A stretch of DNA of 64,000 nucleotides from Armatimonas rosea. Lineage in GTDB: Bacteria > Armatimonadota > Armatimonadia > Armatimonadales > Armatimonadaceae. The stretch's first letter is position 1; each line of letters starts with the position of its first letter. Positions 18,195 to 56,587 of this stretch are shown one piece after another. Location of the stretch: NCBI RefSeq assembly GCF_014202505.1, contig NZ_JACHGW010000002.1:930001-994000 (forward strand), in the 5' to 3' direction. A model generated the notes under the pieces. The model ran no database searches. It was given only the letters and a program-made list of their open reading frames with translations, and was not told the origin of the DNA. Position numbers and translations under genes: made by a program.

Positions 18195-18255
18195 GCTGCA
18201 AGTGAGTACGGCGAGTCACGCGGGAAATCCTGCTTTAGATCGCTCCCGTTGAGCT

Positions 18256-18390
18256 CGCCCCCGTTGGAGGGGGGCGTCTTGCTATCCTCGTGCCTCGGAC
18301 ACAAAGGGCTGCGCCCATAATTCGGTATGGCCGGAGGCCTTCGTGTCGGAGCCTGCGACGACAGCGAGACGCCCCCCTCCAACGGGGGCG
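18256..18390. repeat. Palindromic hairpin element, family A (copy 2)
   Basis: The most perfect copy. The 24-base terminal arms at 18256-18279 and 18367-18390 are exact reverse complements. Each arm is itself a hairpin with loop GTTGGAG or CTCCAAC. The inner part carries GGCCGGAGGCC-type sequence and CTCGTGCCTCGGACAC. It lies between divergent genes (SDR and the 785-residue protein), so it cannot be a terminator for both. Confidence 0.85.
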
Positions 18391-18415
18391 GTCTAAACGG
18401 GGGCGATCTCTTCCG

Positions 18416-18421
18416 TATAAT
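18416..18421 (+). promoter_or_regulatory. -10 box for the 785-residue protein
   Basis: A perfect TATAAT, nine bases before the ATG at 18431 and just outside the family A element. Confidence 0.6.
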
Positions 18422-18430
18422 GGTGTAGAC

Positions 18431-20788
18431 ATGATGCAGACTGCGCTTCGCTCCCTCCGCGACTATCTCACGAACTTAGACTGGGACGCCTCGCGGCGGG
18501 GGAGCCTGCTGGTGGTCGCACCGGAGCAGCTCACGACCAGCCCACCGCGGCCCGAGCAGGACGTTGAGGAGGAGAAAAAGGCGCTGGCGGAGGGAGCTGC
18601 GGCGTTTGCACGGCGGATCGGGCCGCCGGGGCGCTATGGCTACAACCCCGCGCTCTTGGAGCAAGCCTTCGAGCTGCGACGGCTACGAACCAGAACCTGC
18701 GCTGCTTTAGCGCCGTCGCTCATGGTGATTCCGGCACGCCGCTTGCCCAAGCCTGACTTCCACGCCGAAGACGAGCGCCCGGAGCTGATGGAGCTCCTGC
18801 TACGGACCTGCACCCAGACCCAGTGGGAGAAGCTCGGGAGCCGCACGGGCTTTGGGCTCCCTGACTGTGAGACCCGCGCGCAGCGTCGCCTCTTTGAGCG
18901 CATTGTTCCCAGCCCCTTGGTCGTGGGGCGCAACTATAGAAGGCAACCCAACGACCGGCTCTACTCGCCGAGCGAGCGGCTCCGCGCCCGTCTTCGAGTG
19001 GTGCTCTATGTCAGCTCCGATGCTGTCGGCTCCCAAGGTGCCGAGGCGCAGATGCTCTATTTCAACGGCGACAAAAACACGGAGATCACGCTGGTGGGGG
19101 ACAACCCCTACGCGCCGCATGACACCACGTTTGGCGCATCCCTGACCGAGAAGGTGCCGCGCAAGCAAAAGCCTGCCGCCCTGAGCTATGGCGCACTGAC
19201 CACCCCGGTCCATCTTGTTCCCACGACCACGGTCGGTGAGCTTGTGGGACAGATCGCGAGCGCGACACGCTTGCCCCTGACGGTGGACTACCGGCTGAAA
19301 CGCCACTCGGTTCTCACGTGGGGCACCCAGGTGGCGGCGGGCGATTTGCTAGAGGCGCTCTGCTGGTCGCTGGGGGGGAGCGTGCGAAAACTCGACCCCG
19401 CGGCCTTTGTTCTCACCTGGGATAAGGAGCCCCTGACCCTGCACCTCCTGCGCCACGATACCTGGGAGGCCGATGCATGGCTCGAGAGTGTCTACGGAGA
19501 GAAAGAGCCCTATAAAATAGACAACGCCTTGCCCTACCTTGCCCTCGCCGACGATGAGCCGCAGCGCTTCTCGCGGAGCTGGGTCGAGCGGCTGGCGGGC
19601 GGGCCACGCATTGTCAAGTCCGACGCGCTCCCGGCTAGTGTCCAGAACCTGCACGCGCTTGCCCTGGCGGAGCGCTTTCGCGACCAGGAAACCCCACCCG
19701 GCCTCGACTCGGTCCGCCTTGTACTCTCGGCCTGGGCGCAGCTTCTCTTGCCCGATGGCCCGGCCCTTACCCTGGAACCTCTGAGCGTCCCGCTCGGGGC
19801 GACATCGACGACTCAGGACGAGCCTGCGCTTGGCTGGGAGGGGATCGGGCTTACCCTTCGTGCCGAGACACCCGAGCAGGCAGAGCAGCTCCTCGCACTC
19901 ACCGACAAGCTCCCGCTGGCGCGACTCTTTCTGGAGGGCGATGCCCCCACGCTTGCGGCGGCGCTGAAGATGACCAAGAAGCCGCTCTGTGGGCTGGAGC
20001 GCCTGCTGACCGTGCCACCGGGGAGCGACCCACGGGTGGACCGAAATATTCTGGGACAGAGCACGTCGGAGTACGGTAAGAGCCGAGGGCGACGGGGCTC
20101 CGACTGGCTGATCCCCGATGCGCCGGGTGTACAAGAGCACTGTCGGTCAAAGGTCCAGGCGCTCGCGGCGCTTCCGGGGCTGGCGGGCTTGCGCCTCGCC
20201 GACGATACCCCGCCCGGCTACGATGCCGAGCTCTCTCTCCAAGGAATCTACTCACCGGGGGATGCGCTGGGGTACTCACGGGAGAACCGGCTGGCCTACT
20301 GGCGCGAGACCGGCACCGATCCCGCCGATATTCTCGGCTACCGCTCACGTATCACCCTTCCGTACTTCGACGAAGGGCGCGGCGTCACCGTCTCCCCGAC
20401 CTGGCAAGGCTGGCTCCGGCAGAGAGTGGTTCGGCTCCGGCGCGAGGCAACTGCGGGCCTGACCCTCCCGCTCTGGCGCACGGAACTCCTCGATATCTTC
20501 TGGCTGGGCTACGGCCACTCTGCCCCAACGATCCATCTGCTCACGACCTGGAAACCCGCCGACGATAAGACGCCCTTGGTCGATCGTGGCTGGAACGAGG
20601 GGGCGGCAGCCTACCAGAAAACCGGGCAGGTGCTCTACTTCTCCCTCGCGGTTCCCGCGCCCGTGCCCGCCAGTACGCTACAGGGCTACCTGGAGACGGT
20701 ACGAAACTCCGCCAAGGGGATGGAACTAGCGCTGGATCTCTCTTCTTGGCCCGTCGAGGCGGTTCTGAAGCTACTCAAGTCCGAGTGA
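18431..20788 (+). CDS. Large cytoplasmic protein of unknown function
   Basis: 785 residues from the ATG at 18431, placed just after TATAAT; the open frame upstream only translates the palindrome. No signal peptide or membrane helix is visible. Residues ~265-340 (VHLVPTTTVGELVGQIASAT, then LPLTVDYRLKRHSVLTW and AGDLLEALCWSLGGSV) resemble a secretin/TonB short N-terminal (STN)-like fold, which is weak evidence. The rest has no recognised motif; it is rich in Trp, Pro and Leu, with modest repeats of LPLARLFLE type. The 3' end overlaps the convergent TIM-barrel gene by 18 bases. I do not recognise a family. Confidence 0.7.
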   Translation: MMQTALRSLRDYLTNLDWDASRRGSLLVVAPEQLTTSPPRPEQDVEEEKKALAEGAAAFARRIGPPGRYGYNPALLEQAFELRRLRTRTCAALAPSLMVIPARRLPKPDFHAEDERPELMELLLRTCTQTQWEKLGSRTGFGLPDCETRAQRRLFERIVPSPLVVGRNYRRQPNDRLYSPSERLRARLRVVLYVSSDAVGSQGAEAQMLYFNGDKNTEITLVGDNPYAPHDTTFGASLTEKVPRKQKPAALSYGALTTPVHLVPTTTVGELVGQIASATRLPLTVDYRLKRHSVLTWGTQVAAGDLLEALCWSLGGSVRKLDPAAFVLTWDKEPLTLHLLRHDTWEADAWLESVYGEKEPYKIDNALPYLALADDEPQRFSRSWVERLAGGPRIVKSDALPASVQNLHALALAERFRDQETPPGLDSVRLVLSAWAQLLLPDGPALTLEPLSVPLGATSTTQDEPALGWEGIGLTLRAETPEQAEQLLALTDKLPLARLFLEGDAPTLAAALKMTKKPLCGLERLLTVPPGSDPRVDRNILGQSTSEYGKSRGRRGSDWLIPDAPGVQEHCRSKVQALAALPGLAGLRLADDTPPGYDAELSLQGIYSPGDALGYSRENRLAYWRETGTDPADILGYRSRITLPYFDEGRGVTVSPTWQGWLRQRVVRLRREATAGLTLPLWRTELLDIFWLGYGHSAPTIHLLTTWKPADDKTPLVDRGWNEGAAAYQKTGQVLYFSLAVPAPVPASTLQGYLETVRNSAKGMELALDLSSWPVEAVLKLLKSE

Positions 20789-21763
20789 GCCAAAGTACGC
20801 CACGCTCCTGTCCACGAGCCGCCATTCTTCTGCACAAACGGCCTCCGAGCTCTCGCCACGCTCCCAGGCGCTGGAGTAGGGCTGGTCTTGGGGGCGACCC
20901 TTGGCCCAGAGAATCTGAAGGGCAGGGATCAGGGTGCGGACATCGCGCTCGGGGTACTCTGCCCACCACGACACTTCGAGCAGCGGGATGGTGCGGGTTG
21001 CCTGCGCGGCGATCTCGATTCCGGGGAGCAGGTGTGGGAAGCCATTGCACCGCACGATCTCTAAAATTCTGGGAAAGTCCACGACCCCGGTTCCAGCGGC
21101 GCAGCGCACCAAGCGATAGCCCTCGGGCGCGAAGTGGATGGTGTAGTCCTTGCAGTGGATATGGCGGATCAGCGGCCCAAGTCTGTAGGCTGTTACCACG
21201 GGGTCCTCGCCGACCGCCAGCGGGTTGCCAGCATCGAGGCAGACACCAAACGCCGGGTGTGCGCCGGTCTTTTCGTAGAGCCAGAGAAAGTCCGACGTAT
21301 CCGCGTCTTGGTGGTTCTCAAACGCAAGGCTCAGGCCAAGGCTCTCTGCCACGGGCAGTAGTTCGGTGATGCGCCGCGCCAGTGCATCGCGACGGATAAA
21401 CCAGCCTTCGTGCTGACCCAGCTTGCGCCGGTCGCCGCACAGAATCCCGGAGAGGGTGAAGCGCACGACTCTTGCGCCCGCCAGTGCCGCTTTTTTCAGG
21501 TAGCCCTCGGCGTCCTCCATCTCCAAGACACTCATTCCCTCCACCACGAGCCGCAGGCCACGCTCGCCAAGGGCATCGTGGAGGGCGTCTGCGGAGAGGT
21601 CGGGGGGGAGGGGAATATCGACCCCGGCGAGGCCTCGTGCCTGCGCGGCGTCCAATAAACCGAGCGGGGAGAGCGGGCTAGGGTTGGGGGTACCGTCTTT
21701 GGTAGGCAGGTAGCCCAGGACATGCGGCAGCGCATAGGCCGTCAGAGCAAAGGGAATTGGCAT
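20771..21763 (-). CDS. Sugar phosphate isomerase/epimerase-like TIM barrel
   Basis: 330 residues from the ATG at 21763 (MPIPFALTAYALPHVLGY). Xylose-isomerase-like TIM barrel: LSLAFENHQDADTSDFLWL with the metal Glu, FGVCLDAGNPLAVGEDP, IRHIHCKDYTIHF and LPGIEIAAQ with the late Glu. A longer frame to 22048 runs through a repeat and is rejected because a leaderless promoter (TACAAT) abuts the chosen ATG. Likely acts on a sugar or polyol. It is the only gene before the upstream mobile-looking palindrome. Confidence 0.85.
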   Translation of the reverse strand: MPIPFALTAYALPHVLGYLPTKDGTPNPSPLSPLGLLDAAQARGLAGVDIPLPPDLSADALHDALGERGLRLVVEGMSVLEMEDAEGYLKKAALAGARVVRFTLSGILCGDRRKLGQHEGWFIRRDALARRITELLPVAESLGLSLAFENHQDADTSDFLWLYEKTGAHPAFGVCLDAGNPLAVGEDPVVTAYRLGPLIRHIHCKDYTIHFAPEGYRLVRCAAGTGVVDFPRILEIVRCNGFPHLLPGIEIAAQATRTIPLLEVSWWAEYPERDVRTLIPALQILWAKGRPQDQPYSSAWERGESSEAVCAEEWRLVDRSVAYFGSLGLE

Positions 21764-21958
21764 GGCAGATTGTACCTGGCTTGAAAAAGTCCCTGGGAAC
21801 AAATCCCGGACAGTGAGCCCGGACAACGAGTGTCCGGGCTTAAGAGGGCGACGGCGACCTTCGTCGCCACTCAGTTCGGTTGGCTGCGAAGGCAGCCGTC
21901 GCCCTCTTAAGCCGGAAGACTCGTTCTTCTGGTAACGTTGGCATGGCAGATTGTACCT
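21757..21958. repeat. Family C palindromic element flanked by a 21-base direct repeat
   Basis: Exact 21-base direct repeats at 21757-21777 and 21938-21958 enclose 160 bases. The core has 19-base perfect inverted arms (21837-21855 and 21895-21913, ending in CTTAAGAGGGCGACGG) around two hairpins GGCGAC-CTTC-GTCGCC and GGCTGC-GAAG-GCAGCC. Outside the arms sit hairpins with loop ACGAG (stem AGCCCGGACA) and CTCGT (stem CCGGAAGA). The direct repeats look like a target duplication from insertion. No coding capacity. A related copy lies at 48064-48165. Confidence 0.85.
21769..21774 (-). promoter_or_regulatory. Leaderless -10 box for the TIM-barrel gene
   Basis: Minus-strand GGTACAAT, five bases, ATG (21763). 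The same 21-base block including this box and ATG recurs at 21938-21958, beyond the repeat. Confidence 0.7.
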
Positions 21959-22046
21959 CGTGGTTTCTGTCTGGAACAAAGTGCACACTTGGCGACGTAT
22001 AAGAGGTAGAATGAGAGTATCTTTGGAACTCTCTGGAGGAAGAAAC

Positions 22047-27935: not shown

Positions 27936-28068
27936 GGGCCGGGGGCTTTCCGGGCATTGAAATACCCGGCATAAAAATAAGGAGCGTCCCGTGGACGCGC
28001 AGAACACAACATGCTCTGCGCGTCCTCGGGACGCTCTTTTTCCGTAGGCGGGGACTTTCAGCCCCCGA
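27936..28068. repeat. Palindromic hairpin element, family B (copy 1)
   Basis: Outer hairpins with TTGAAA-type (CCGGGCATTGAAATACCCGG) and CTTTCAG-type loops flank an inner palindrome GGAGCGTCCC-GTGGACGCGC ... GCGCGTCC-TCGGGACGCTC. It fills the gap between convergent genes. The right end contributes to the next gene's stop region. T-rich bases (CTCTTTTTCC) beside the inner stem might allow termination. Confidence 0.8.
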
Positions 28069-28392
28069 CTACCCGCTGCGGTGGAGGCGCTCGCGGGCCA
28101 TCTGGATATCGGCCTTGAGCTCGGGGTCGGTGGCGAAGCGTGCCAGGGTTTTATCGTCGGCCTTGCTCCCGATATAGCCCACGAGCCGAGCGGCATGGGC
28201 ACGCACCAGCCGCGGGCGCTTGCTTGCCACAATCGACAAGAGCTCCTTGAGCAGTGCGGCACGCAACGCCTTGGGCTGGCCGGGTGCGGCGGCACCGTGG
28301 ACATCGCGTGTCATCTGGAGCATGGCCGCCTTTGCCTTCACTTGGTCGCTCCCCGCCATCGTGTCGGCGAGGGAGGTGAGTAGCTCACGCAT
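28069..28392 (-). CDS. Small all-helical HEAT-like protein
   Basis: 107 residues from the ATG at 28392 (MRELLTSLADTM), preceded by GAAAGGA as ribosome site. Composition and spacing (KALRAALLKELLSIVASK, HAARLVGYIGSKADDKTLARFATD) suggest two or three HEAT-type helical repeats. No catalytic motif. It starts two bases after the stop of the Gfo/Idh/MocA gene, so the two form an operon and the small protein may bind or regulate that enzyme. An upstream TTG start is possible but less likely. Confidence 0.65.
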   Translation of the reverse strand: MRELLTSLADTMAGSDQVKAKAAMLQMTRDVHGAAAPGQPKALRAALLKELLSIVASKRPRLVRAHAARLVGYIGSKADDKTLARFATDPELKADIQMARERLHRSG

Positions 28393-48018: not shown

Positions 48019-48063
48019 ATGAGGATTGTACTTCTTTCAAAAGTGTCCGCAACCACCAGAGTT

Positions 48064-48165
48064 CCGGCTTAAGAGGGCGACGGCTGCCTTCGCAGCCAAC
48101 CTAACCTACTGCGTCCGCAGGGACGCGTCGCCCTTGCAAGCCCGAGGACTCGTTCCTCGGGAAAC
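48064..48165. repeat. Palindromic hairpin element, family C (copy 2)
   Basis: CCGGCTTAAGAGGGCGACGG then GGCTGC-CTTC-GCAGCC, then GCGTCC-GCA-GGGACGC, CGTCGCCC, and a closing hairpin CCCGAGGA-CTCGT-TCCTCGGG. The CTCGT hairpin and the opening AAGAGGGCGACGG match copy 1 at 21757, but the arms are less perfect and no flanking direct repeat is visible here. It lies in the gap between two minus-strand genes (48195 and 48018). Confidence 0.75.
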
Positions 48166-56260: not shown

Positions 56261-56317
56261 TTCGTTCTCTCTTTAGTTCCGTGTCCAGCCTGAGGCGTGC
56301 GGCGAGAGAAGAGTGTC

Positions 56318-56424
56318 TCTTGTCTTCGCAGGAAGCGCCTGCTCGGAATTCGCACCAGGCTACGCAGATTCGCGCCGGTTGCGGTGGTTTCATAGGGCCG
56401 ATCCCTCCGCCACTCTGGACAAGA
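56318..56424 (-). ncRNA. SAM-I (S-box) riboswitch upstream of metK
   Basis: On the minus strand: P1 TCTTGTC/GACAAGA closes CAGAGTGGCGGAGGGA, TCGGCCCTATGAAACC, CGCAACCGG and CTGGTGCGAATTCC. These match the SAM-I core (GAGGGA, GGCCC-AUGAAACC, GCAACC, GGUGCUAAUUCC). The 57 bases between P1 and the ATG have no U-run; TTCTCTC just after P1 can pair with GAGAGAA next to the start, so control is probably translational. Confidence 0.93.
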
Positions 56425-56438
56425 CTGTTGTCATGTTT

Positions 56439-56514: not shown

Positions 56515-56587
<73 letters not shown>

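Follow-up and report, generated by a model that had tools for sequence, protein, structure and literature searches.

Within the window, by which we mean the whole stretch of 64,000 nucleotides that was analysed, the minus-strand gene of a TIM-barrel protein borders on a non-coding, palindromic segment of 160 bp that lies between two copies of the sequence TTGGCATGGCAGATTGTACCT (Table 1). Read directly from the sequence, the two copies are identical at 21/21 positions, and the repeat spans a -10-like TACAAT box, the start codon (ATG) of the TIM-barrel gene and the 4 bases that follow it. It had been predicted that a 160-base non-coding palindrome with 19-base perfect arms sits here between identical 21-base copies of the promoter and start of the adjacent gene, and the length of the interior, the exactness of the repeat, the motifs that it covers and the two arms were all confirmed. 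When folded as DNA, the region 21757-21959 reached -59.9 kcal/mol, compared with -31.2 for shuffled sequences (z = -8.4), and the region had no match in Rfam. TACAAT-type -10 boxes lie 5-8 bases 5' of an ATG at 21938-21958 and in many other flanks of the same palindrome family, which suggests that many transcripts in this genome are leaderless.

Table 1. Features of the window (positions counted from its first nucleotide)
Feature	Position	Strand	Remarks
TIM-barrel gene, PF01261, xylose isomerase-like	20771..21763	-	domain match; promoter and start duplicated
Left 21-bp repeat of L001 (probable target-site duplication)	21757..21777	+	contains TIM-barrel promoter and start codon
Inserted palindromic element, family C, 160 bp	21778..21937	.	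about 55 copies in G000
Extra half-hairpin units CCCTGGGAACAAAT, CCCGGACAGTGAG outside left hairpin	21778..21817	+	unit number differs among copies
Left outer hairpin CCCGGACAACGAGTGTCCGGG	21818..21838	+	fold and covariation
Left 19-base perfect arm GGCTTAAGAGGGCGACGGC	21837..21855	+	sequence
First inner hairpin GGCGACCTTCGTCGCC	21853..21868	+	fold and covariation
Second inner hairpin GGCTGCGAAGGCAGCC	21882..21897	+	fold and covariation
Right 19-base perfect arm GCCGTCGCCCTCTTAAGCC	21895..21913	+	sequence
Right outer hairpin CCGGAAGACTCGTTCTTCTGG	21912..21932	+	followed by 5 bases (TAACG) up to right repeat
Right 21-bp repeat of L001	21938..21958	+	21/21 identical to left
Second family C copy of window	48040..48161	-	present at orthologous place in G001
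Family B palindrome, comparison set	18225..18420	.	family halves flank Y1 gene of L055; L288 copy with 17-bp duplication
Family A palindrome, comparison set	27945..28075	.	family flanks Y1 gene of L054
SAM riboswitch	56317-56425	-	elsewhere in window
tRNA gene	56515-56587	+	elsewhere in window

The interior of the repeat (copy L001) belongs to a palindrome family, here called family C, with about 55 copies in the 6.33-Mb genome of the window (G000, Armatimonadota; 110 two-strand covariance-model matches and 81 blastn matches) and 4 copies in a MAG of the same genus (G001, Armatimonadetes, JAPLCP01). The second copy of the window is common to both genomes and is therefore older. In the aligned copies, which are about 120-160 bp long, two outer and two inner hairpins are arranged around a stem of 14 pairs, the inner hairpins standing in inverted order with a spacer of 13-14 bases. 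The hairpin stems vary in sequence with pairing kept (changes on both sides in 154 cells of the alignment versus 57 in shuffles; 94% of cells paired) and loops such as AACGAGT are conserved; the pattern of G-U pairs favours neither strand. Many copies carry extra half-hairpin units, in varying number, outside the outer hairpins, and in L012, L025, L042 and L008 such units (CCCGGACAACGNAGTNN, about 14-17 bases) have accumulated there in tandem. At L237:1001-1050 (G000 C4:400938-400987) a remnant that has lost the core consists of two outer hairpins back to back. Elements of like architecture and other sequence, with outer loops TTGAAA or ATAAAT, were found in hosts from other families of the phylum, namely G006 (L151, L155, L160), G013 (L152, L156) and G017 (L149, L158, L165, L168). 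Covariance-model matches in G004 fell within coding DNA and appeared to be due to chance, the sole viral match was likewise a chance arm within a coding gene, and a search of plasmids for family C gave no match.

Long flanking direct repeats were found at 4 of the 55 family C copies examined and were absent from the other 51. Besides the 21/21 match at L001 they comprise 17/17 bases at L016, 16/16 at L004 and 22/24 at L164, the last in G001. When every left flank was paired with the right flanks of all other family C copies (1332 pairs), the maximum was 13, against 21 for L001, and in the corresponding comparison for L164 it was 12. An unbiased scan of 1.22 Mb of sequence yielded 19 exact direct-repeat pairs of at least 14 bp at a spacing of 85-320 bp, one of which surrounds a run of N and was set aside; a strong palindrome (arms of at least 13) lay inside 4 of the 18 usable pairs, these being only L001, L004, L016 and L288, a family B copy that is described below. 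The right repeat of L001, L004 and L016 starts at a near-constant boundary, 24-25 bases past the conserved core, and the left ends of these copies are variable, lying 3, 31 and 40 bases beyond the left hairpin. The terminal bases of the elements are GGCTT/AACG (L001), TTTCC/CACAT (L016) and AGCAA/TTTG (L004). All three repeats touch the start region of the adjoining gene. At L164 the final codons of the left gene recur, out of place, in the right repeat, and the orthologous site in G000 has those codons once and no element. A direct repeat beside the half-copy at G001 C181 proved to be two tRNA genes and was not counted as a target-site duplication (TSD).

Comparison of the two related genomes shows that family C is mobile, copies being present in one and absent from the other. 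The clearest case is L016, whose flanks are 87% and 91% identical to contig 161 of G001, where the element is lacking; the two flank alignments overlap by exactly 17 bases, TGGCAAACACTCCTTGA, which are present in a single copy in G001. Insertion with duplication of the target is thus demonstrated at L016 by an orthologous empty site. The element is also absent from the orthologous place in G001 at L028, L023, L037, L015, L021 and L009, and no duplication was visible at these six sites (L028, L023 and L021 among them), so that the comparison is clean only at L016. At L015 (G000 C8:111506) family C has split a 16-base bidirectional promoter, as found in G001 C142, and the two genes are now served by separate promoters, each on the side of the element where its gene lies. 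For the window copy, the test envisaged in the original prediction gave a divided answer: in the G001 ortholog the promoter occurs once, as GGTACAATTTCGTATGCC, and the element is lacking, as anticipated, and the upstream neighbour of the ortholog is a different one, so that there is no strict empty site and the comparison is suggestive only. L288 and the right flank of the window element were without a match in the portion of G001 that was compared.

These results bear out the original reading of the 21-bp repeat as a TSD and of the element as mobile, since sister copies have repeats of 16, 17 and 24 bp and one of them has an empty site; we infer that the repeat at L001 arose in the same kind of event as that at L016. 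A lack of duplications at other family C copies had been named as evidence against this, and most copies do lack them; loss is expected in old insertions, and 4/55 copies keep their repeats. Most family C copies are probably without repeats because of their age, as selection may act on the gene-proximal copy only and leave the gene-distal copy to drift. Family C is short and non-coding, has inverted repeats and multiple copies, and in addition has flanking TSDs (4/55) with an empty site in a relative (exact at L016), as is usual for a MITE. The proposed classification as a non-autonomous, MITE-like unit accordingly agrees with the non-coding interior, the 19-base arms, the roughly 55 copies and the TSD, with the qualification that structure and dispersal are REPIN-like. 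Taken together, L001 is very probably a non-autonomous, REPIN-like palindromic mobile element that was inserted at the promoter and start of the TIM-barrel gene with a 21-bp target duplication.

Promoter and start motifs adjoin family C more frequently than they do the palindrome families A and B, which are found in other settings: an outward promoter-ATG motif was present within 150 bases of 22/37 family C copies and of 8/57 A and B copies (p = 5e-6). The neighbours of all family C copies included no transposase and no recurrent gene. A possible autonomous partner at L037, where half-copies stand 1.5 kb apart, was rejected, as they flank kdsA and another gene and not a transposase. With a TSD, each side of the element retains a promoter or an undamaged gene end, so that insertions at tight gene borders could survive, and the duplication explains how these palindromes can land on promoters and overlapping gene ends without destroying them.

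Families A and B also served as controls for the flanking repeats. The first 57 copies had no flanking repeat above the null, no duplication was seen at seven empty sites of the two families in G001, and a 27-base overlap at L106 was an alignment artefact. The set was then enlarged to 88 with 25 more copies (2 of them already included) and 8 further palindromes of the window, and this brought to light L288, a family B copy in which an exact 17-base repeat, TTCTAGAGCGGCGTCTT, surrounds an element of 153 bases. The stop codons of two convergent genes lie overlapping within this repeat, and the 17-bp duplication alone keeps both genes intact. Long TSDs thus occur at 4/55 family C copies and 1/88 controls, and the notion that they are a hallmark of family C as against palindromes that flank Y1 genes was dropped; with L288 a long TSD is no mark of family C alone. 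A long TSD is documented for one family C copy by its empty site and for one family B copy by the anatomy of its genes, and REPIN-like palindromes in G000 and G001 insert with long TSDs of variable length, 16-24 bp.

G000 has 7 genes for Y1 (IS200-like) transposases, which lie among other palindrome families, including A and B; family C flanks none of the seven. Six of the 7 proteins score 66-74 bits against the IS200 model NF033573 (cut-off 55) and 25-36 bits against the REP-transposase model NF047646, which is below its cut-off of 80. At L055:1300-2010, L054:1280-2075 and L059:1350-2010 the Y1 gene lies between halves of family B, of family A and of a relative of family B, respectively, an arrangement that resembles autonomous versions of the palindromes, and at L060:1250-1870 (G000 C1:923756) a Y1 gene with its middle deleted still lies between palindrome halves. 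Nothing was found that connects family C itself with a transposase. A Y1 (HUH, IS200-like) transposase of G000 acting in trans would nonetheless be the likeliest candidate enzyme for family C, as a palindrome family that flanks a Y1 gene (family B, L288) shows the same kind of TSD, and the covarying hairpins would be compatible with an enzyme that, as HUH/Y1 enzymes do, recognizes single-stranded DNA in folded form. On such a scheme the hairpins would serve for recognition of the folded element, which would be joined to target ends produced by staggered cuts 16-24 nt apart, and filling of the gaps would generate the direct repeat. Elements of the IS200/IS605 group are reported to generate no sizeable TSD (PMC2817692), so that this scheme would require the opposite strand to be nicked as well, at a distance of about 16-24 nt. 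Our working hypothesis, which we put forward only tentatively, is that REPIN-like palindromes served by Y1 enzymes may insert by such a two-strand, staggered reaction with a TSD of 16-24 bp, preferentially at promoters and gene ends opened by transcription.

Among other explanations, capture during repair comes closest, although we consider it unlikely. Folded palindromic DNA or cDNA would be ligated into a staggered break with long overhangs that are then filled in, and no dedicated enzyme would be involved; this would suit the variable TSD length and left ends and the absence of a linked transposase, but 55 structured copies and the preference for gene starts suggest a dedicated process, and the near-constant right boundary of L001, L004 and L016 also speaks against it. 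Somewhat less likely still is a MITE of an IS1202-group DDE insertion sequence whose transposase acts in trans on the element ends. The IS1202 group makes TSDs of 16-28 bp (PMC10132070), a range into which our lengths of 16, 17, 17, 21 and 24 bp (L288 included) fall and which corrects the earlier remark that 21 bases is long for known transposases. The ends of the elements, however, lack the reported 5'-TGT, they vary in sequence while the hairpin structure is kept, and the Y1-linked family represented by L288 has the same TSD. Insertion through RNA by target-primed reverse transcription, as for a bacterial SINE-like element, is improbable: covarying hairpins, one constant and one variable end and variable TSDs are features that it would share, but the G-U pattern singles out no strand and the family of L288 is one associated with a DNA transposase. 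That no transposition took place, the direct repeat being a product of chance or of a local duplication unrelated to the palindrome, is scarcely credible, for although repeats are absent at most copies, the null comparisons at family C copies never gave one of such length, palindromes lie within 4/18 usable repeat pairs of the 1.22-Mb scan, and at L016 the exact empty-site match refutes it.

Insertions with a long, variable TSD and an empty site allow the step of insertion itself to be approached directly. Should these duplications be the work of Y1 enzymes, they fall outside the accepted scheme, in which no TSD is formed; otherwise, bacterial palindromes have a further mobilizer that has yet to be named.

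The closest parallel to family C is with REPIN/REP sequences and their RAYT (TnpA-REP) transposases, which likewise comprise paired palindromes with inverted hairpins, scattered through intergenic DNA in tens to hundreds of copies, and single-copy Y1 genes that the same genome carries amid related palindromes; the inner hairpins of family C, inverted and with a short spacer, have the form by which a REPIN is recognized. Family C differs in having four hairpins and not two, in its long TSDs and in the lack of a Y1 gene of its own, and the Y1 proteins of G000 score, in 6 of 7 cases, above the cut-off of the IS200 model and below that of the REP-transposase model. Like ERIC, NEMIS/Correia and RUP MITEs, family C is short and non-coding, with inverted ends and target duplications in young copies. 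In those MITEs a known transposase determines a TSD of short, fixed length, whereas the TSDs of the palindromes in G000 and G001 are of 16-24 bp and variable. CGTC-tagged REPs resemble family C in having hairpins beside a CGTC motif and no dedicated transposase, but they are defined by an unpaired 5' CGTC tag and a CCA tail around one hairpin (PMC3733652), whereas in family C the tag lies in reversed orientation on the opposite side of the hairpin, with most of its bases paired in the long stem. The IS1202 group, similar in TSD length, consists of 1.5-kb coding elements with TGT-type ends, an end sequence not common to family C, and casposons, with TSDs of 14-15 bp (PMC6977970), share a long TSD but are large, carry cas1, target tRNA genes and have a TSD of fixed length. 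From the TSD-free IS200/IS605 elements family C and family B are set apart by the 17-bp duplications at L016 and L288. In structure and dispersal the element resembles REPINs, and its TSD is the defining trait of a MITE; searches of the open-access literature yielded no account of long TSDs in elements of the REP type.
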